From Prevotellaceae bacterium (GTDB taxonomy: Bacteria; Bacteroidota; Bacteroidia; Bacteroidales; Muribaculaceae): a DNA stretch of 50,319 nucleotides. A program made the translations under genes and the position numbers. Below the pieces are notes generated by a model, which did no database searches, was not told where the DNA came from, and saw only the letters and a program-made list of their open reading frames with translations. The stretch lies in the NCBI GenBank assembly GCA_021772015.1, contig JAETNS010000017.1, forward strand, positions 1 through 50,319. The letters run 5' to 3'. Below, in pieces: positions 20,668 through 31,525 of this stretch (positions within the stretch are counted from its first letter, which is position 1; each line of letters opens with the position of its first letter).

Positions 20668-22155
20668 ATGATGCGAAAAATACGTATAACCCTCGCATTG
20701 ATATTCTGGACACTGATCACAGCCATGTTTCTCGATTTCACCGGGACCTTGCATCACTGGCTGGGATGGATGGCAAAAATACAGTTCCTGCCGGCAGTAT
20801 TGGCGTTGAATGTGGCGGTGGTTGTCGGCCTGATCGTCCTGACACTCATCTGTGGCAGGGTTTATTGCTCCGTAATATGTCCTATGGGAGTGTTTCAGGA
20901 TATTGTCTCCAATATCTCATCACGTCGCAAGAAGAAAAAAAGACGGTTCAAATACCATCCCGCCCACAATATCCTCCGCTATTCCGTGCTGATCATCTTC
21001 ATAATAATGCTGGTGGCCGGATTCACAGCTATCGCTTCATTTATAGCCCCATATAGCGCGTATGGCCGTATGGTCCAGAATCTCGGTGCACCTGTAGTCC
21101 TGTGGATCAACAACCTCTTCACCCCTGTAGCGGAGCATTATGGCAGCTACGCCATATATAGCCGCGAGATTTGGATACGTTCACTTCCGGTGTTCATAGT
21201 AGCCTTGGTGACGTTTATCACGATCTCCATTCTGGCATGGAGTGGAGGCCGAATATATTGCAATACGATATGCCCGGTAGGCACAATCCTCGGATTGCTT
21301 TCCCGCTACAGCCTGTTGCGGCCCGTCATCGACACCGACAAGTGCATAAATTGCGGTAGTTGTGCCCGCAGATGCAAAAGCTCATGTATCGATGCCAAGA
21401 GCCATACTATAGACCTCAGCCGTTGTGTGGCATGCATGGACTGTGTGGATGATTGCTCCAAAGGAGCCATCAGTTTCTCCGTCAGACGCGTGCCCACAGT
21501 CAAAGCTGACAAAAACGTCAATGTAGATAACGGGCGACGTGCATTCGTGATCGCCGGGGCTGTCGCCGCCGGGACCACTGCTGCGATGAAAGCGCAGAAA
21601 ACCGTTGATGGCGGACTGGCGGAAATCCTCGACAAGGAATTGCCTAAGCGGTCGACACGCCTGGTGCCTCCCGGAGCGGTGAGCGTCAAGCATTTCGCAC
21701 AACATTGCACAGCCTGTCAGCTTTGTGTCTCACAATGCCCCAACGGCGTATTGCGCCCGTCGACCGACCTCACTCATTTCATGCAGCCCGTGATGGCATT
21801 CGACCGGGGGTATTGCCGTCCGGAATGCCATACATGTTCGGATGTCTGCCCAGCCGGAGCGATAAAACCCATAACCTGGGAAGATAAGAGTTCGACACAG
21901 ATCGGGCATGCTGTATGGATCGCCAAGAACTGTATCGTGAACACCGACGATGTGGAGTGTGGCAACTGCGCCCGTCATTGTCTGGTCGGAGCAATCACCA
22001 TGGTGCCGTCCGATCCGTCAGATCCGGACTCACGGAAAATTCCCGCTGTTGACGAAACGCGATGCATCGGTTGCGGAGCCTGCGAGAATCTATGTCCCGC
22101 CAGACCCTTCAGCGCGATTTATGTAGAAGGACATGAAACCCACCGAACTGTCTAA
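20668..22155 (+). CDS. NapH-NapG-like fused membrane polyferredoxin
   Basis: A 495-residue iron-sulfur electron-transfer protein. The N-terminal about 210 residues have four or five hydrophobic helices with two NapH-type motifs, CGRVYCSVICPMG and GGRIYCNTICPVG. Two ferredoxin motifs follow (CINCGSCARRC, CVACMDCVDDC). Then comes a twin-arginine-like hydrophobic segment, RRAFVIAGAVAAG, with the Arg pair at residues 290-291. After it, LVPPGAV resembles the start of mature NapG, and four more Cys clusters occur (CTACQLCVSQC, CRPECHTCSDVC, CGNCARHC, CIGCGACENLC). I infer that the internal segment crosses the membrane and places the last clusters on the periplasmic side. The next gene starts at or just after its end, so they form an operon. 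No nitrate reductase gene is present. Confidence 0.85.
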   Translation: MMRKIRITLALIFWTLITAMFLDFTGTLHHWLGWMAKIQFLPAVLALNVAVVVGLIVLTLICGRVYCSVICPMGVFQDIVSNISSRRKKKKRRFKYHPAHNILRYSVLIIFIIMLVAGFTAIASFIAPYSAYGRMVQNLGAPVVLWINNLFTPVAEHYGSYAIYSREIWIRSLPVFIVALVTFITISILAWSGGRIYCNTICPVGTILGLLSRYSLLRPVIDTDKCINCGSCARRCKSSCIDAKSHTIDLSRCVACMDCVDDCSKGAISFSVRRVPTVKADKNVNVDNGRRAFVIAGAVAAGTTAAMKAQKTVDGGLAEILDKELPKRSTRLVPPGAVSVKHFAQHCTACQLCVSQCPNGVLRPSTDLTHFMQPVMAFDRGYCRPECHTCSDVCPAGAIKPITWEDKSSTQIGHAVWIAKNCIVNTDDVECGNCARHCLVGAITMVPSDPSDPDSRKIPAVDETRCIGCGACENLCPARPFSAIYVEGHETHRTV

Positions 22156-22177
22156 CCTTCAGCTGACCCCTTACCCT

Positions 22178-23977
22178 ATGATATCACGCCGCGATTTTTT
22201 CCGCAAAGTATCCCTGGCGGCCCTTGCCACATCACCTTTGCTGACAGCCTGTTCCGGCAAGAAAGGATCGGAATATTCAGATGACAACTTGCCGCAGACC
22301 GACATTCCGACTGACAAGATGACATACCGCACCAATCCCAAGACCGGGGAAAAAGTCTCCTTGTTGGGTTACGGCTGTATGCGTTGGCCGACAATTCCCG
22401 ATCCGGACAATCCGGGAGAGGATCTCATCGACCAGGAAGAGGTAAACCGCATGGTAGACGTGGCCTTGGAGCATGGGGTCAACTATTTCGACACCTCCCC
22501 GGCTTACTGCAAAGGCCGGTCGGAGAAAGCTGTCGGAATAGCCTTGAGCCGTCACCCGCGCGACAAATATTTCATCGCCACCAAGCTTTCCAATTTCGAT
22601 CCGTCAACCTGGCCGCGCAGCAAATCGGAGCAGATGTACCGCGATTCGATGCGTCTCCTCCAGACCGACCATATAGACTACATGCTTTTACATGCGGTAG
22701 GCATGGGGAATGAACCCATGAAGGAGTTCAACGCCCGATATATCGACAACGGCATGCTCGATTTCCTCGCTGCTGAGAGAGAAGCCGGACGTATCCGCAA
22801 TCTCGGGTTCTCCTATCATGGAGACATCCGCCTGTTTGACATGTTGTTGGAATGGCATGACAAATACAAATGGGACTTCGTGCAGATACAGCTCAACTAT
22901 CTTGACTGGGAGCATGCCAAGGAGATCAACTCCCGCAACACCAATGCGGCGTATCTTTACAGTGAATTGGAAAAGCGTGACATTCCGGCTGTGATCATGG
23001 AACCGCTTCTGGGTGGCCGTCTCGCCAAATTGCCCGACTATGTCGTAAAGCTGCTGAAAGAAAGAGAACCTCAGAGGTCTGTGGCCTCATGGGCGTTCAG
23101 ATATGCCGGGACATACCCTAAAGTACTGACCGTCCTTTCGGGTATGACCTATATGGACCATCTTCAAGACAACCTGCGGTCATTCTGTCCTCTTGCCCCA
23201 CTGACGGGCGAAGAGACAGGTTTCCTCCACGATGTCGCCGGGATAATCGCAAGTTACCCGACAGTCCCATGCAATGAATGCCAGTACTGTATGCCATGCC
23301 CTTACGGGCTTGACATCCCCGCCGTCTTCGCCCATTACAACAAATGCGTGAATGAAGGGCAGGTTCCTGATTCGCCGGAAGCGGAGAATTACTCGGAAGC
23401 CCGCAAACGGTTTCTTGTAGGTTACGACCGCGCCGTACCGAAATTACGGCAGGCATCACACTGCGTCGGCTGCGGAAAATGCGTCGGCCACTGCCCCCAA
23501 AAGATCGATATACCGGGAGAGATGGCCCGCGTCGACGTGATCGCCGAAAGTCTCCGTCGTGGCACACCCCCGGCCATGAGCGCCCTTGTGGCACTGCTGA
23601 ACAAGGGTGACACAACCCTGGTCATTGACAACGGCCGCGTCACATGCCATACCGGCCACGGGGTCGCAGACCTGCACAGATTACTGACGGAGCATCCGCG
23701 TATGCTTAAAGGTGCGCGCGTAGCCGACAAGATTGTAGGCAAAGGAGCTGCCGCCCTGATGATTCTCGGCGGTGTCCGCGAAATCTATACCCCTCTCATC
23801 AGCAAACCGGCTCTGCGCCTGCTTGGCGGTTACGATATAAAGGCCACCTACGACAAGGTAGTCGACCATATCATTAACCGCGACAAGACAGGCTGGTGTC
23901 CGGTAGAGACCCTCTGCCGCGACCTGGCTACTCCCAATGAGTGCCTGTCCGCCATAACTGAATTTTTGAAAAAATGA
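22178..23977 (+). CDS. Tat-type lipoprotein aldo/keto reductase with C-terminal ferredoxin clusters
   Basis: A 599-residue protein starting [13 protein letters not shown], a twin-arginine signal, with the lipobox LLTAC placing the lipidated Cys at residue 25. A TIM-barrel aldo/keto reductase follows with the catalytic tetrad apparently intact: Asp and Tyr in FDTSPAY, Lys in IATKLS and His in MLLHAVG. The C-terminal part has two iron-sulfur motifs, [10 protein letters not shown] and [11 protein letters not shown], and an extra helical region. Cytosolic relatives use NADPH; an exported form would need another electron source, and the preceding membrane polyferredoxin is the obvious candidate. 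The frame is open from 22133, overlapping the polyferredoxin gene by 23 bases, but the Tat start at 22178 is more convincing. It overlaps lepA by four bases. Confidence 0.87.
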
Positions 23978-27183: not shown

Positions 27184-28158
27184 TCAGAATGCCTTTATAC
27201 AAAGATCGGTCACCCATATCCAGAGGGGGCAGAAAGCGATGAAGAGTATCACAGACAAAGCCAGCGAAGAGGTACCGGTGGCGACATAAGTGTCATATTC
27301 ATCGGCAATGATCACACCCGAGAAGGCGGGAGGCAATGCGCCGGCGACAACCAGCATCTTGAGGTTGAGGGGATCCATCTTGAAAATCAAGCCGACCACC
27401 AGCAACAACGCCGGCATCACTATCAGTTTCATGATCGAGCCAAGCACAGCCTGCCAGTTGATAGTCACCTTTACGGCTGAAAGCGTCACACCTGCGGCGA
27501 ATACCGCCAAAGAGGCATTCGCGCCTTTGATCAGGTCAAATGATGGAGAAGCCCATTTGGGCCAGGGCAAACCGATGATCACCCACACAACCGCCAGGAT
27601 AGGAGCCCAGGCCACAGGCTGGGCCAAAGCATGAAGCACAGGAGCCCACGCCGACGGACGTTTCTTTCCGGCCGGCTGTGGATTGGTCTTCTCAAGGGAT
27701 GCATTCAGCAGGGATAGACCGACGGGGATTCCGACCGCATTGACGACGATTCCCACGATGGCGACTACAAGAGCCACATAAGGTGTCGTCCCGAAAATAG
27801 GTTCCAGAACGGCAAAGCCAAGGAATCCGATTGTAGAAGAGCCGCTGATAAGAGCCATGATTGCCGCATCCGCCCCTGTGTTTTTCTTGAAACACCATTT
27901 ATAGACATAATAGACAAGCATGAAGCAGAACATCATGACAATCAATGAGATCAGAGACAGTTTGATGTCCTGGACCAGCATTTCGCGCGAGGCATCGACT
28001 ATCGACACGAACAACGCGGCAGGAAGGGCGTAGTCAAGCACGACCTTGTTGAACGCCTTGGCGTTCTCCCCGCTAAAGATCCCTTTCTTGCCGGATATGT
28101 AGCCGGCAAGCATCACGACGATGATAGGGACAATCGCATATAACAGAATGTGTACCAT
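27184..28158 (-). CDS. AEC-family permease, likely oxalate or formate transport
   Basis: A 324-residue inner-membrane protein of the auxin efflux carrier family with about ten hydrophobic helices in two halves joined by a charged loop (LEKTNPQPAGKKR). The start (YAIVPIIVVMLAGYISGKKG) and the conserved asparagine/proline-containing helix (VVLDYALPAALFV) are typical. E. coli has an AEC gene, yfdV, next to frc and oxc homologues, and the same three-gene set occurs here. I therefore infer oxalate uptake or oxalate/formate exchange, which is not proven. It lies 55 bases after oxc on the same strand. There is no OxlT-type antiporter in the window. Confidence 0.85.
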   Translation of the reverse strand: MVHILLYAIVPIIVVMLAGYISGKKGIFSGENAKAFNKVVLDYALPAALFVSIVDASREMLVQDIKLSLISLIVMMFCFMLVYYVYKWCFKKNTGADAAIMALISGSSTIGFLGFAVLEPIFGTTPYVALVVAIVGIVVNAVGIPVGLSLLNASLEKTNPQPAGKKRPSAWAPVLHALAQPVAWAPILAVVWVIIGLPWPKWASPSFDLIKGANASLAVFAAGVTLSAVKVTINWQAVLGSIMKLIVMPALLLVVGLIFKMDPLNLKMLVVAGALPPAFSGVIIADEYDTYVATGTSSLALSVILFIAFCPLWIWVTDLCIKAF

Positions 28159-28213
28159 ATTATTTGAAACGTGAGGTTAATATAATCAACAGACTCGTCA
28201 TGAGCATTTGATG

Positions 28214-29971
28214 TCAGACAGTGATATCAATCAGAGGCGCGGGATTGAGATAGCCTATATGACCGCTCTCCTTCCCGGAATCAGCAGCCAGCTGCACATC
28301 AATCAATGCCGGAGCCTTGGAAGCGATGGCCTCTTTCAAGGCTGCGGAGAACTCGTCGGGCGTTGTGACATAATAGGTCTTTGCTCCGAAAGCTTCGCCC
28401 AACTTGTCATAACGGGCGTTCACGTCAAGGGTGGTAGGCGCAGGATCGGTGGTGCCGTCAAGTGTTTTCCCTACTCCGTTGTAGATACCTCCGTTATTGA
28501 AAATACAAACCGTCACAGGCAGTTTGAAACGGCAGATGGTTGAGAAATCCATCCCGGAGAAACCAAAAGCGGAGTCTCCCTCGATTGCCACGACAGATTT
28601 ACCGGTCGCTACAGCCGCACCTATGGCAGAGCCCATGCCCATACCCATGATAGCCCATGTAGCACAATCCACACGATGACGGGGCAATGACATGTCGATA
28701 GTGTCGCGTGTGTCGTCAAGTGTGTTCGCTCCCTCATTGACAAGGATCACATCAGGATTGGACTCAATGACAGGTTTGGCTGCGCTCAATGCGCTCCAAT
28801 GGGTCATAGGCACGGTCTTGGCAGCAAGACGCTCGGCAAACTTGGCGTTCTTCTCTTTTGTCAGAGACTGCAGACCGGGAACCCATGAGGGATCCATTGA
28901 GAGCTTGACACCTTTCATTTTTTCCAGAATGGCTGTCAGAGAGCTTCTGAGATCACCGATGACAGGCGCGTCTATATGACGGTTGCAGTCGATCTCCTGA
29001 GGATCAATGTCAAGCTGTATGAACTTCCCTTGCTTGTTCCATTTGCCGCCGCCACGGCTCAACAGCCAGTTAAGGCGAGCACCTACAAGGACGACGACAT
29101 CGGCGTCCTCCATAATCTGCGAACGGCAGGAAAGAGCACTCAAAGGATGATTGTCAGGCAGGATACCTTTTGCCATGGACATCGGATAATAAGGTATCCC
29201 GGTTGTCTCAACCAATTCTTTCAACAAGTCCTCCACTTTAGCGTAGGCGGCTCCCTTGCCGAAAAGAAAAGCCGGTTTCTTTGCGGAAGCAAGCAAAGAG
29301 ACTGCACGGTCTACAGACTCCGGGGATGGAATCATCGCCGGTTGCGGATCAACCGGAACCTGCAACAACGCTTCTGCCGCATCATGGTCAAGGACTTGAC
29401 CCAAAGCCGGAGTCGTGATATCGAGATAAACACCACCTGGACGACCCGAAACGGCGGCTCTGTAGGCCCTTACTACTCCTGTCGGAATATCCTCGGCACG
29501 GTTCACACGGTAGGCTGCCTTAACCAGAGGCTTAGCCATGTTTAGCTGATCAAGCCCCTCATAAGTACCTTGGTCGAGATCGATAGGCTCACGGACAGAT
29601 GATCCGGAAATCTGGATCATAGGATAGCAATTGACTGTGGCATTGGCGGTAGCCGTAAGTCCGTTCAGGAAGCCCAAGGATGACACGGTCAACAAGACAC
29701 CGGGCTTGCCGGTGAGATAGCCGTGGGTCTGTGCGGCCATCCCCGCCTGCTGTTCGTGACGGAATCCTACGAAACGGATTCCTTGTCCCTGAGCGATGTA
29801 TGCGGCTTCGGTAACAGGGATCCCGACCAAACCATACATGGTGTCTATTCCGACAGCCTTCAAGGCACGGGCAAGGATATACATCCCCGTTACTTGATCA
29901 GGGAATTTTGGCGCGGGTTTGGAGCATCCGCAGTTCTGGGTGACTTTATCGGTTGTGTTTGTATCTGACAT
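28214..29971 (-). CDS. oxc: Oxalyl-CoA decarboxylase
   Basis: A 585-residue TPP-dependent enzyme that converts oxalyl-CoA to formyl-CoA and CO2. It has the catalytic Glu in FVGFRHEQQAG, the ISGSSVREPIDL segment, VNEGANTLDDTRD and the TPP/Mg motif GDSAFGFSGMDF...NNGGIYNG. These match the Oxalobacter enzyme family closely over the whole length. The frame is open up to 30142, but the ATG at 29971 gives the expected size with a short N-terminal extension holding two Cys (QNCGCSKP). The gene stands between frc and the AEC permease on one strand. The 249-base gap to frc has no obvious promoter. Confidence 0.95.
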   Translation of the reverse strand: MSDTNTTDKVTQNCGCSKPAPKFPDQVTGMYILARALKAVGIDTMYGLVGIPVTEAAYIAQGQGIRFVGFRHEQQAGMAAQTHGYLTGKPGVLLTVSSLGFLNGLTATANATVNCYPMIQISGSSVREPIDLDQGTYEGLDQLNMAKPLVKAAYRVNRAEDIPTGVVRAYRAAVSGRPGGVYLDITTPALGQVLDHDAAEALLQVPVDPQPAMIPSPESVDRAVSLLASAKKPAFLFGKGAAYAKVEDLLKELVETTGIPYYPMSMAKGILPDNHPLSALSCRSQIMEDADVVVLVGARLNWLLSRGGGKWNKQGKFIQLDIDPQEIDCNRHIDAPVIGDLRSSLTAILEKMKGVKLSMDPSWVPGLQSLTKEKNAKFAERLAAKTVPMTHWSALSAAKPVIESNPDVILVNEGANTLDDTRDTIDMSLPRHRVDCATWAIMGMGMGSAIGAAVATGKSVVAIEGDSAFGFSGMDFSTICRFKLPVTVCIFNNGGIYNGVGKTLDGTTDPAPTTLDVNARYDKLGEAFGAKTYYVTTPDEFSAALKEAIASKAPALIDVQLAADSGKESGHIGYLNPAPLIDITV

Positions 29972-30220
29972 ATCGGTATATTTATAATCGTTTGAATATT
30001 TTCTAAATCCGGCCTCTGGGACAATCTCCTGAAGACCATCTATAAAATAAGTTGTCAAGTTTTCAAGCGCCTGCCCGTGACCGACCACTGACGACAGTCC
30101 GACATGGGGCCGGCCGCGATGCAGGTGCCGAAAACGAAACAACCTAAACCTAAAAACTTAACAACTCTATAGCTGAAGTCAGGGAGTTACCTTAAAGCCA
30201 ATTCCCTGTGAGGATGAAGA
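29972..30220. other. frc-oxc spacer
   Basis: I find no gene and no full consensus promoter here. The gap is long for an operon, so it may hold a regulatory site that I cannot recognise. Confidence 0.35.
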
Positions 30221-31525
30221 TCATTTTGACGAAGCAGGAGCCTTGGGGAGCGGAGCTGTAGTACCGTTCTTGGCGAATTCCGCAATCTGTTCATCTGTAT
30301 AGCCGTAGGCTTTCAAGACCTCGTCGGTGTTGCCTCCCAATGTCGGGCAAGGACCATAGGCAGGCTGGAAGTTGGAAAGGGTGAAAGGCACGCCAACCGT
30401 GACAAACTCCCCTATTTTACCTCCCTGGTTGATCTTTACGAGAGTGTTGCCATCGTAAAGAGTCTCATCCTCCATGATCTCCTTGGTGTTGAGGACGGGA
30501 GCGACAGGCACACCTGCCTTTGAGAGGATTTCGGTGACTTCGTACTTGGTCTTGTCGATAGCCCATTCACCGATCCTTTTGTAGATCTCTTGTTTATGGC
30601 GGTCACGGGCATCAGCCGTATTGAAATCGGGATTAGTGAGCCAATCCTCGAAACCAAGAGCCTTGCAGGCAAGCTCGAAGTCTTTGGCTCCTCTCTGTAA
30701 GATGATGTAGGCATATGCGTTGGGATCTGTCTCCCAGCCTTTGCATTTGTAAGTCCAGCCGAGCACGCCAGAACCCTCCTGGTTACCGCTGCGGGGAACG
30801 AAGTCTCCGAACTTCTGATCGGGATACTGCGGGAACTGGGTCAGATATCCTATCCTGTCAAGTGTCAGCTGGTCGCGGGTCTTGATACGGCATAGGTTCA
30901 AGCACGCGTTATGCATCGATTGATAAACAAAACTCCCCTCTCCGGTATGCTGCCTCTGGAGCAAAGCCGCCAGAATGCCTATGGCACAATGCATGCCTGT
31001 GTTGGAGTCGCCAAGAGCCGCTCCTGACTGAGTCGGGATATTGTCAGGGCCTTCCCACCACCCGGTGGTTGAAGCTGCGCCGGCGGTAACCTGTGCCACC
31101 GGTTCATAAGCCTTCAGGTTGACATATTTTGAAGAAAGAGGGAATCCCTTGATCGTAGCGTAGACACAACGCGGGTTTATCTTGTGAACCGCGTCCCAGC
31201 CGAAACCGAGCTTGTCCATTGCCCCGGGATGGAGGTTTTCGATAAACACATCTGCCGTCTCAAGGAGTTTTGTCAGGATCGCCTTTCCGTCAGGGGTGGC
31301 CGCGTCAAGGGTAAGAGACTTCTTGTCGGAATTCAGCTGTAGGAAATAATAACTCGGACAATCAGGATCAAACTGAAGTTCATTACGGGTAGCGTCGCCG
31401 GAGCCGGGACGTTCGATTTTGATCACATCCGCTCCGAGCCATGCGAGGAGCTGCGTACATGAAGGGCCTGACTGCACATTGGTGAAGTCAATGACCTTGA
31501 TCCCCTGTAGAGGTGCTGTATTCAT
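30221..31525 (-). CDS. frc: Formyl-CoA:oxalate CoA-transferase family protein
   Basis: A 434-residue class III CoA-transferase. In oxalate breakdown it moves CoA from formyl-CoA to oxalate, giving oxalyl-CoA for Oxc. The catalytic Asp is in GAALGDSNTG, the conserved Gln in FTNVQSGP and the Tyr in KAYEPVAQ. Two substrate-site features differ from the Oxalobacter enzyme as I remember it: the Trp after the TRG/TRN motif is Glu (ATRNELQ), and the glycine loop before the Gly-Trp pair reads QEGSGVLGW instead of GGGGQPGW. An extended C-terminus is Lys/Ala/Pro rich. Context still favours oxalate, but another acid or CoA donor is possible. It is the first gene of the oxalate set. Confidence 0.88.
   Translation of the reverse strand: MNTAPLQGIKVIDFTNVQSGPSCTQLLAWLGADVIKIERPGSGDATRNELQFDPDCPSYYFLQLNSDKKSLTLDAATPDGKAILTKLLETADVFIENLHPGAMDKLGFGWDAVHKINPRCVYATIKGFPLSSKYVNLKAYEPVAQVTAGAASTTGWWEGPDNIPTQSGAALGDSNTGMHCAIGILAALLQRQHTGEGSFVYQSMHNACLNLCRIKTRDQLTLDRIGYLTQFPQYPDQKFGDFVPRSGNQEGSGVLGWTYKCKGWETDPNAYAYIILQRGAKDFELACKALGFEDWLTNPDFNTADARDRHKQEIYKRIGEWAIDKTKYEVTEILSKAGVPVAPVLNTKEIMEDETLYDGNTLVKINQGGKIGEFVTVGVPFTLSNFQPAYGPCPTLGGNTDEVLKAYGYTDEQIAEFAKNGTTAPLPKAPASSK

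Follow-up and report, generated by a model that had tools for sequence, protein, structure and literature searches.

A transmembrane polyferredoxin and a predicted exported aldo-keto reductase as a candidate twin-arginine-dependent redox module in Bacteroidales

Introduction

Aldo-keto reductases (AKRs) are textbook cytoplasmic NAD(P)H enzymes, and a gene for one that carries an export signal, beside a gene for a membrane protein rich in iron–sulfur clusters, raises the question of where the electrons of such an enzyme would come from or go to. The two genes lie in a stretch of 50,319 nucleotides from Prevotellaceae bacterium (assembly GCA_021772015.1, contig JAETNS010000017.1), analysed as a whole and called the window below:

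20668..22155, + strand: polyferredoxin gene, 495 amino acids (aa), comprising a NapH-like membrane part, an internal twin-arginine segment and a NapG-like part (open reading frame, Pfam, NCBIfam, alignment)
22178..23977, + strand: predicted exported AKR gene, 599 aa from the conserved start (open reading frame, alignment with homologues)

An earlier note on this DNA, written from the letters alone, had suggested that the reductase may draw electrons from the polyferredoxin. Here we report that the pairing of the two genes is real, that their sequences support export of both proteins by twin-arginine translocation (Tat) and that, on balance, the pair probably forms a Tat-dependent redox module in which electrons would move between carriers in the membrane and the exported AKR, most likely for extracytoplasmic reduction.

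Results

The two genes nearly touch and are both on the + strand, and they are found together in other genomes. For the window's order we used a set of 198 Bacteroidales genomes, queried with both proteins; the AKR was called at an identity of at least 53% over most of the protein (37 places in 34 genomes, five of the 37 containing in-frame stops that were counted within the match) and the polyferredoxin of the AKR-partner clade at about 50% identity or more, the copy in one genome (G001) being split across two contigs. Genomes are labelled G### and loci L###, G000 being the window's own genome. Thirty-four of the 198 genomes carry the AKR clade and the identical 34 carry the polyferredoxin clade, none having one alone. 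A polyferredoxin touches 33 of the 37 AKR places and lies in the same locus in G133, the places with no neighbouring polyferredoxin being those in G014, G160:C16 and G071:C46. A second set, obtained by scanning the contigs of named genomes, holds the best 80 of 588 confirmed relatives and is for that reason biased to close relatives of the window. Here 74 of the 80 loci have the two genes side by side and in the same orientation, with the polyferredoxin upstream in 72 and downstream in 2; taken between the ends of the two matches, the upstream gaps have a median of 46.5 bases, with four above 200 bases and the largest, 1,448 bases, in L093. In that locus two tandem AKR copies of the exported type stand behind one polyferredoxin (L093:6980-9784). 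The co-occurrence across Bacteroidales that the earlier note had proposed as a check is thus borne out, and the pairing is real and not a product of chance.

The nearest named relative is L039, from a Porphyromonadaceae metagenome-assembled genome (MAG), in which both proteins are 80 to 86% identical to those of the window. In a phylum-wide draw of 296 genomes, of which 20 others were listed (2 of the same order, 18 of the same class) and 275 were unlisted, the AKR at E ≤ 1e-50 appeared only in the window's own genome. Both genes are also carried by an Opitutales MAG (L042), whose AKR is placed inside Bacteroidales sequences with support of 100/96, and by Desulfovibrio sp. An276 (L115), which is weakly placed on the AKR tree. 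Because each of them carries both genes, these copies suggest joint horizontal transfer of the pair, with MAG contamination a possibility for L042.

The reductase gene encodes more than a catalytic barrel:

22178..22252, + strand: putative Tat lipoprotein signal with SRRDFFRK, a short hydrophobic core and an LLTAC lipobox (alignment, hydropathy)
22370..23185, + strand: AKR TIM-barrel domain with the conserved Asp/Tyr/Lys/His tetrad (PF00248, E 1e-34; model; fold match)
23270..23503, + strand: two [4Fe-4S] motifs, CxxCxxCxxCP and CxxCxxCxxxCP (Fer4_9 dicluster in Pfam; alignment)
23585..23968, + strand: TM1506/DUF1893 domain fused to the AKR C-terminus (PF08973, E 7e-44; motifs kept)

The first three of these agree with the earlier description of an AKR with a Tat signal, a lipobox and two iron–sulfur clusters, and the fourth, C-terminal domain had been missed. 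The start at the ATG at 22178 agrees with the homologues, and an in-frame ATG at 22133 upstream of it would add 15 aa (614 aa). The eight cluster cysteines are the same in all 28 aligned sequences, 27 of them from relatives. The predicted local distance difference test score (pLDDT) of the model is mostly above 90 in the AKR domain and poor in the DUF1893 part, and the nearest solved fold to the AKR is AKR11C1 (1ynp), with a template-modelling score (TM-score) of 0.76 by target length. A PF00248 search of the window's own genome yields this AKR only. Its closest counterparts are signal-less iron–sulfur AKRs, which we take to be COG1453-like and which share the barrel, the tetrad, the MEPLxGG and LSGM...DN loops and the eight cluster cysteines; the window's clade is set apart from them by its Tat lipoprotein signal, its polyferredoxin partner and, in many cases, DUF1893. 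At the other end of the gene, lepA starts at 23974 and so overlaps the AKR gene by four bases (23974-23977); it may thus be transcribed together with the redox pair.

Export is indicated by the N termini and by the distribution of tatC. In an initial set of 30 loci, which includes that of the window, RR or RK precedes the hydrophobic core of every AKR (RK in L033 and L038), and two AKRs (L020 and L025) have no lipobox cysteine. RRxF is present in 80 of the 80 loci of the larger set; 68 of these match the strict lipobox pattern and ten of the remaining 12 have YGC, PGC or CGC, while L043 has ESC and L116 has no cysteine in the N-terminal part inspected, which places a lipobox-type cysteine in 78 or 79 of the 80. 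The window's AKR has the features of a Tat lipoprotein, namely the RR motif, a hydrophobic core, the lipobox cysteine and a tatC in the genome, where a single copy lies on another contig than the pair. Among the 198 genomes tatC was found in 168 (166 above cut-off), with all 34 AKR-positive genomes having it as against 132 of 164 others above cut-off (Fisher p 0.0018). For the polyferredoxin, 88 of 89 genomes with a full or nearly full copy of either clade have tatC compared with 78 of 109 without (p 2e-8, with relatedness uncorrected). Eight genera are mixed for the AKR: five of their AKR-negative members have no polyferredoxin of any kind, four of which (G192, G122, G127 and G080) also have no tatC, and the three AKR-negative congeners with a sister polyferredoxin retain it. 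In 23 of the 80 loci tatC itself lies at most 2.7 kb from the AKR block on the same strand. The sequences therefore support Tat export of both the AKR and the polyferredoxin, as had been supposed.

The polyferredoxin is predicted to bring clusters to both sides of the membrane, and the following features, judged on an alignment of 30 sequences (29 relatives), carry that prediction:

20866..20880, + strand: first CxxxCP motif (C67, C71), at the predicted cytoplasmic end of the second transmembrane segment (invariant in the 30 aligned sequences; topology)
21259..21273, + strand: second CxxxCP motif (C198, C202; invariant in the 30 aligned sequences)
21343..21456, + strand: predicted cytoplasmic ferredoxin domain with two [4Fe-4S] clusters, C226 to C263 (Pfam, alignment; side by the positive-inside rule)
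21535..21597, + strand: twin arginines R290/R291 and a weakly hydrophobic fifth membrane segment (R291 invariant; hydropathy)
21706..22095, + strand: NapG-like part with four [4Fe-4S] motifs, C347 to C476, predicted extracytoplasmic (Pfam, NCBIfam, alignment)

Pfam finds two Fer4_5 stretches of the NapH type and four Fer4 stretches, in keeping with the earlier reading of a NapH-like part with two ferredoxin clusters joined to a NapG-like part with four, and NCBIfam gives a NapH match in the N-terminal half and a NapG/MauM match in the C-terminal half, each under its cut-off. Every cluster cysteine, the 16 from C347 to C476 included, is either invariant or conserved in at least 90% of the sequences. 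By hydropathy the protein has four strongly hydrophobic membrane segments, with means of 1.86 to 2.88, and a weak fifth one at residues 292-310 (mean 1.18), directly after R290 and R291. The sequence that follows these arginines, AFVIAGAVAAG, confirms the twin-arginine-like segment (Arg 290-291, then FVIAGAVAAG) already described, and R291 is invariant in all 30 sequences. The fifth segment is followed by the positive charges K308 and K311. The loop between segments 2 and 3 has ten Lys/Arg and one acidic residue, which predicts an N-in protein with four spans and the RR segment, in which the CxxxCP motifs and the first ferredoxin domain would lie inside and the NapG-like part outside. By analogy with the published relative considered below, the two CxxxCP motifs (C67/C71 and C198/C202) are likely to hold a third cytoplasmic-side cluster. 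The AlphaFold model has a mean pLDDT of 81.7 and falls below 50 in the RR segment, so that it settles nothing about that segment. We also considered a flavin carried by the polyferredoxin and rejected it, as a Pfam search gave no FMN-binding (flavin mononucleotide) domain.

This architecture has a precedent. In the delta proteobacterium MLMS-1 a polyferredoxin (Q1NSB0) in which a NapH-like part is fused to a NapG-like part was shown by reporter fusions to be exported in a Tat-dependent manner, and this fusion type was reported to require Tat for its assembly (Tooke et al. 2017, PMC5449189). According to the main text of that paper, the fifth segment of Q1NSB0 is weakly hydrophobic, immediately preceded by a twin arginine and followed by positive charges, and of the predicted clusters three lie inside and four outside; the window's protein has the same features, with four spans, two CxxxCP motifs, a cytoplasmic ferredoxin domain, the RR/fifth segment and four predicted extracytoplasmic [4Fe-4S] motifs, the likeness being one of architecture. 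The charge distribution of the window's protein and the reporter fusions in this relative agree with the idea that the two ferredoxin regions lie on opposite sides of the membrane. On the three points on which the earlier note had staked its proposal, opposite sides are predicted, a tatC is present in the genome and homologues of the reductase keep their signal. NapGH, the quinol dehydrogenase of periplasmic nitrate reduction, has the same two parts and, by homology, the same membrane arrangement, but as separate polypeptides, whereas the window encodes a single chain that scores under the cut-offs of both models and is accompanied by an AKR.

The C-terminal domain of the AKR is recognised by PF08973 at residues 485-612, counted from 22133, and resembles TM1506 of Thermotoga maritima (PDB 1vk9; phmmer E 2e-11), with which it shares the DK-x-x-GK and CP motifs and from which it differs in being fused to an exported AKR. 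DUF1893 occurs at 22 places in 21 of the 198 genomes, and 19 of these 21 are AKR-positive (Fisher p 2e-15); 12 of the 22 places are at the AKR, 2 of them fused and 10 just downstream, with a largest gap of about 190 bases in G024. In the 80-locus set it is present in 23 loci, mostly as a separate gene, and fused in five (L039, L040, L042, L051 and L084), which with the window and L010 brings the fusions to seven sequences. On the AKR tree the fused state requires four changes, at least two of them forced by well-supported branches, with gains and losses indistinguishable. Fused copies retain the ADKxxGKxAA (SDK in L051) and CP (CPxE) motifs. One separate copy, confirmed by PF08973, has a lipoprotein-type signal of its own (L148:4080-4556, in G195:C11); the same genome also encodes an AKR–DUF1893 fusion. 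We had considered DUF1893 a simple cytoplasmic neighbour; its fusion to the exported AKR in scattered lineages, and the signal of its own that it carries in L148, make this untenable as a full account. The domain would then either hitchhike with the AKR through Tat, for which subunits of the Escherichia coli PaoABC enzyme offer a precedent in the account given in PMC4273604, or act partly before export. The TM1506/DUF1893 superfamily has been described, in the passages of PMC8946771 that concern it, as auto-ADP-ribosylating on aspartate.

Sister polyferredoxins (about 35 to 47% identity) have another partner. In 10 of 11 loci examined (L120-L125, L128-L130 and L138) they adjoin an uncharacterised DUF362 protein, some 310 aa long, that bears an RR signal, the Pfam TAT_signal model matching four of the ten. 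The eleventh locus, without a DUF362 neighbour, belongs to the window's own genome, where a second, diverged polyferredoxin (about 40% identical) lies on another contig (L119, G000:C15:67729-69189) with no Tat-signal partner adjoining. A transmembrane iron–sulfur conduit and an exported partner thus make up a module with exchangeable partners, and two diverged AKR–polyferredoxin pairs (L126 and L127) are also found. Flavodoxin_4 proteins with a signal-like N terminus occur near the pair in L042, L044, L047, L095, L132 and L133, and an FMN_red protein of the FMN-reductase/flavodoxin fold, with an RR signal, stands between polyferredoxin and AKR in L127 (5604-6476) and L133 (7814-8578).

Neighbouring families were counted over 248 proteins, neighbours longer than 700 aa and six other long ones being excluded: TatC accounts for 17 and FMN_red for 4, and in the first 139 proteins there are 8 energy-coupling factor (ECF)-type components, 4 TonB receptors and 3 Flavodoxin_4 proteins. 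A TonB receptor and then an ECF-type transporter component follow the module in L041, L047, L052 and L132. We abandoned the inference of a substrate from this context because the same ECF-type protein also adjoins DUF362 modules (L122 and L123). This ECF-type component, recognised by a similarity that stays under the Pfam cut-off, is found repeatedly next to polyferredoxin modules of either kind and next to DUF1893 genes that stand alone (L144-L146), sometimes accompanied by a TonB receptor or a phosphoribosyltransferase.

Discussion

One half of this system was already known. The earlier note knew of no described pathway with this set, which has to be qualified for the polyferredoxin, whose type and whose modular use have been published, and which stands for the pairing, of which we found no description. 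NapH-like proteins serve as modules that combine with exported reductases or with an alcohol oxidase outside the cytosol, and in some cases probably take electrons from quinol and pass them across the membrane (Meheust et al. 2021, PMC8238504, main text). The flavinylated NapH-like systems considered there also combine a NapH-like conduit with an exported redox partner, but Pfam finds no FMN-binding domain in the window's polyferredoxin. Neither the main text of that paper nor that of PMC5449189 contains a word that begins with 'aldo', and in a literature search that left most subscription journals outside we found no description of the AKR–polyferredoxin–TM1506 set. What appears to be new is a NapH/NapG-type conduit with an exported AKR as its partner.

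We propose the following mechanism. The polyferredoxin would act as a transmembrane electron conduit, its NapH-like part in contact with menaquinol or cytosolic ferredoxin at the inner side and its NapG-like part carrying four clusters outside. The AKR would be exported folded with its clusters prebuilt, in keeping with the ability of Tat to carry folded, cofactor-loaded proteins, and, as a lipoprotein, would be attached to the inner membrane from outside, where its two clusters could swap electrons with the NapG-like part and most likely drive the reduction of an extracytoplasmic carbonyl or related group. As one-electron clusters alone cannot deliver a hydride, a flavin or a bound nucleotide would still be needed, and hydride chemistry would call for a captive nicotinamide or a flavin partner; captive NAD(P) is presumably possible in an exported AKR, as in glucose–fructose oxidoreductase, and in a minority of loci the exported flavodoxin-type or FMN_red neighbours might supply the two-electron step. 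The TM1506 domain or protein would accompany the AKR, fused to it or as a hitchhiker. A more detailed version, which we consider rather unlikely as a whole, has electrons crossing through the seven predicted clusters of the polyferredoxin into those of the AKR and onwards as hydride by way of a captive nucleotide or a flavodoxin-type partner, with TM1506, a domain of an ADP-ribosylation fold, helping to load or hold the nucleotide before export, so that no soluble NAD(P)H would be needed.

Several observations weigh against the proposed module. In the alignment, the exported AKRs do not differ from cytosolic iron–sulfur AKRs in catalytic tetrad or coenzyme-loop signature, so that use of NAD(P) remains compatible with the sequence. 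This also weakens the argument that the reductase may draw electrons from the polyferredoxin because NADPH is absent outside the cytoplasm: the coenzyme site is kept and the enzyme may leave the cytoplasm with its cofactor loaded. A flavin partner is not general either, since flavodoxin-type neighbours are limited to a minority of loci. In the window, Pfam finds no flavodoxin-type protein among the 13 proteins around the pair, no flavin domain in the polyferredoxin or AKR, and no FMN-binding model in these two or the 13 neighbours, ApbE not having been searched for. All 11 separate DUF1893 proteins inspected by eye start without a signal. The Pfam TAT_signal model leaves the window's AKR unlisted at E ≤ 1 in a search of its own genome, and Pfam and NCBIfam scans of this AKR with the 15 extra residues list no Tat model; recognition by the Pfam model is a detection aid and does not define a Tat lipoprotein. 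In six of the 80 loci the polyferredoxin does not adjoin the AKR (L051, L082, L098, L099, L103 and L109), four of them having about 7 kb of sequence on each side and two a short flank on one side. Finally, tatC was undetected in one genome with a polyferredoxin (G088) and is kept in the fifth of the congeners described above that have neither polyferredoxin (G003), which has another AKR with an RR N terminus (L155).

With regard to the coenzyme loop, we had read its changed residues as a loss of the contacts to the NADP phosphate in the exported AKR and dropped this reading, as the cytosolic iron–sulfur AKRs show a like pattern and so does AKR11C1, of which there is a holo structure.

The strongest alternative keeps the module and turns the current around. 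The exported AKR could be a periplasmic dehydrogenase that oxidises an alcohol, a sugar or another reduced substrate and sends the electrons through its clusters and the polyferredoxin to menaquinone, a course that we regard as possible though distinctly less probable than outward flow. AKR chemistry is reversible, and the TonB receptor and ECF-type component downstream of the module in four loci would fit a substrate handled outside. Conduits of the NapH-like kind have, moreover, been reported in company both with reductases and with an alcohol oxidase outside the cytosol (PMC8238504, main text). The sequence features leave the direction unfixed, and NapGH, as described in the main text of PMC5449189, runs from quinol outwards, which counts against this alternative.

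A second alternative, which we find improbable, is that the AKR is self-contained. Glucose–fructose oxidoreductase is exported by Tat with tightly bound NAD(P), and an AKR of this kind could shuttle hydride between two substrates while its clusters serve as structural elements and the polyferredoxin, though co-inherited, serves another client. The intact tetrad and coenzyme loop, common to the cytosolic iron–sulfur AKRs and similar in AKR11C1, suit this idea, as does the passage of folded, loaded proteins through Tat. Against it stand the reciprocal co-occurrence with an iron–sulfur conduit in 34 of 34 genomes, the adjacency of the two genes and the invariance of the eight cluster cysteines.

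It is still harder to accept that the mature enzyme is not exported despite its RR signal, or that the AKR is exported and DUF1893 does its work inside, for instance as a factor that helps to load or mature the enzyme and is let go before export. The signal-less separate DUF1893 proteins and the failure of the TAT_signal hidden Markov model to pick up the window's AKR would be explained; the RRxF in 80 of 80 loci, the lipobox-type cysteine in 78 or 79 of them, the linkage to tatC, the scattered AKR–DUF1893 fusions and the lipoprotein-type signal of L148 all speak against it. That the two genes are neighbours by chance can be dismissed, as it is contradicted by the co-occurrence, adjacency and tatC-linkage counts and no point in its support was found.

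An AKR clade that is apparently exported by Tat in many gut Bacteroidales and is accompanied by an iron–sulfur conduit in all 34 AKR-positive genomes searched for both points to an unrecognised anaerobic electron-transfer branch at the cell envelope, with carbonyls or sugars from the diet or the host as possible substrates, and the more detailed version would make of it a carbonyl-reducing branch of the respiratory chain of gut Bacteroidales that needs no soluble NAD(P)H. As conduit modules track tatC in the sampled genera, with the exceptions G003 and G088, they may be a main reason for which some of these bacteria retain Tat. A TM1506 partner, hitchhiking or fused, would provide a poorly understood ADP-ribosylation superfamily with a concrete client.

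Two further observations concern genes other than the pair. Elsewhere in the window's own genome, a protein with an RR signal that resembles, by look, an oxidoreductase dependent on flavin adenine dinucleotide (L159:1489-2889, in G000:C2) adjoins a SusD-like gene. Within the window, genes for a Mem_trans membrane transporter, a thiamine pyrophosphate enzyme and a CoA-transferase III lie in a row at 27184-31525, an arrangement that we take to resemble an oxalate-type decarboxylation cluster.

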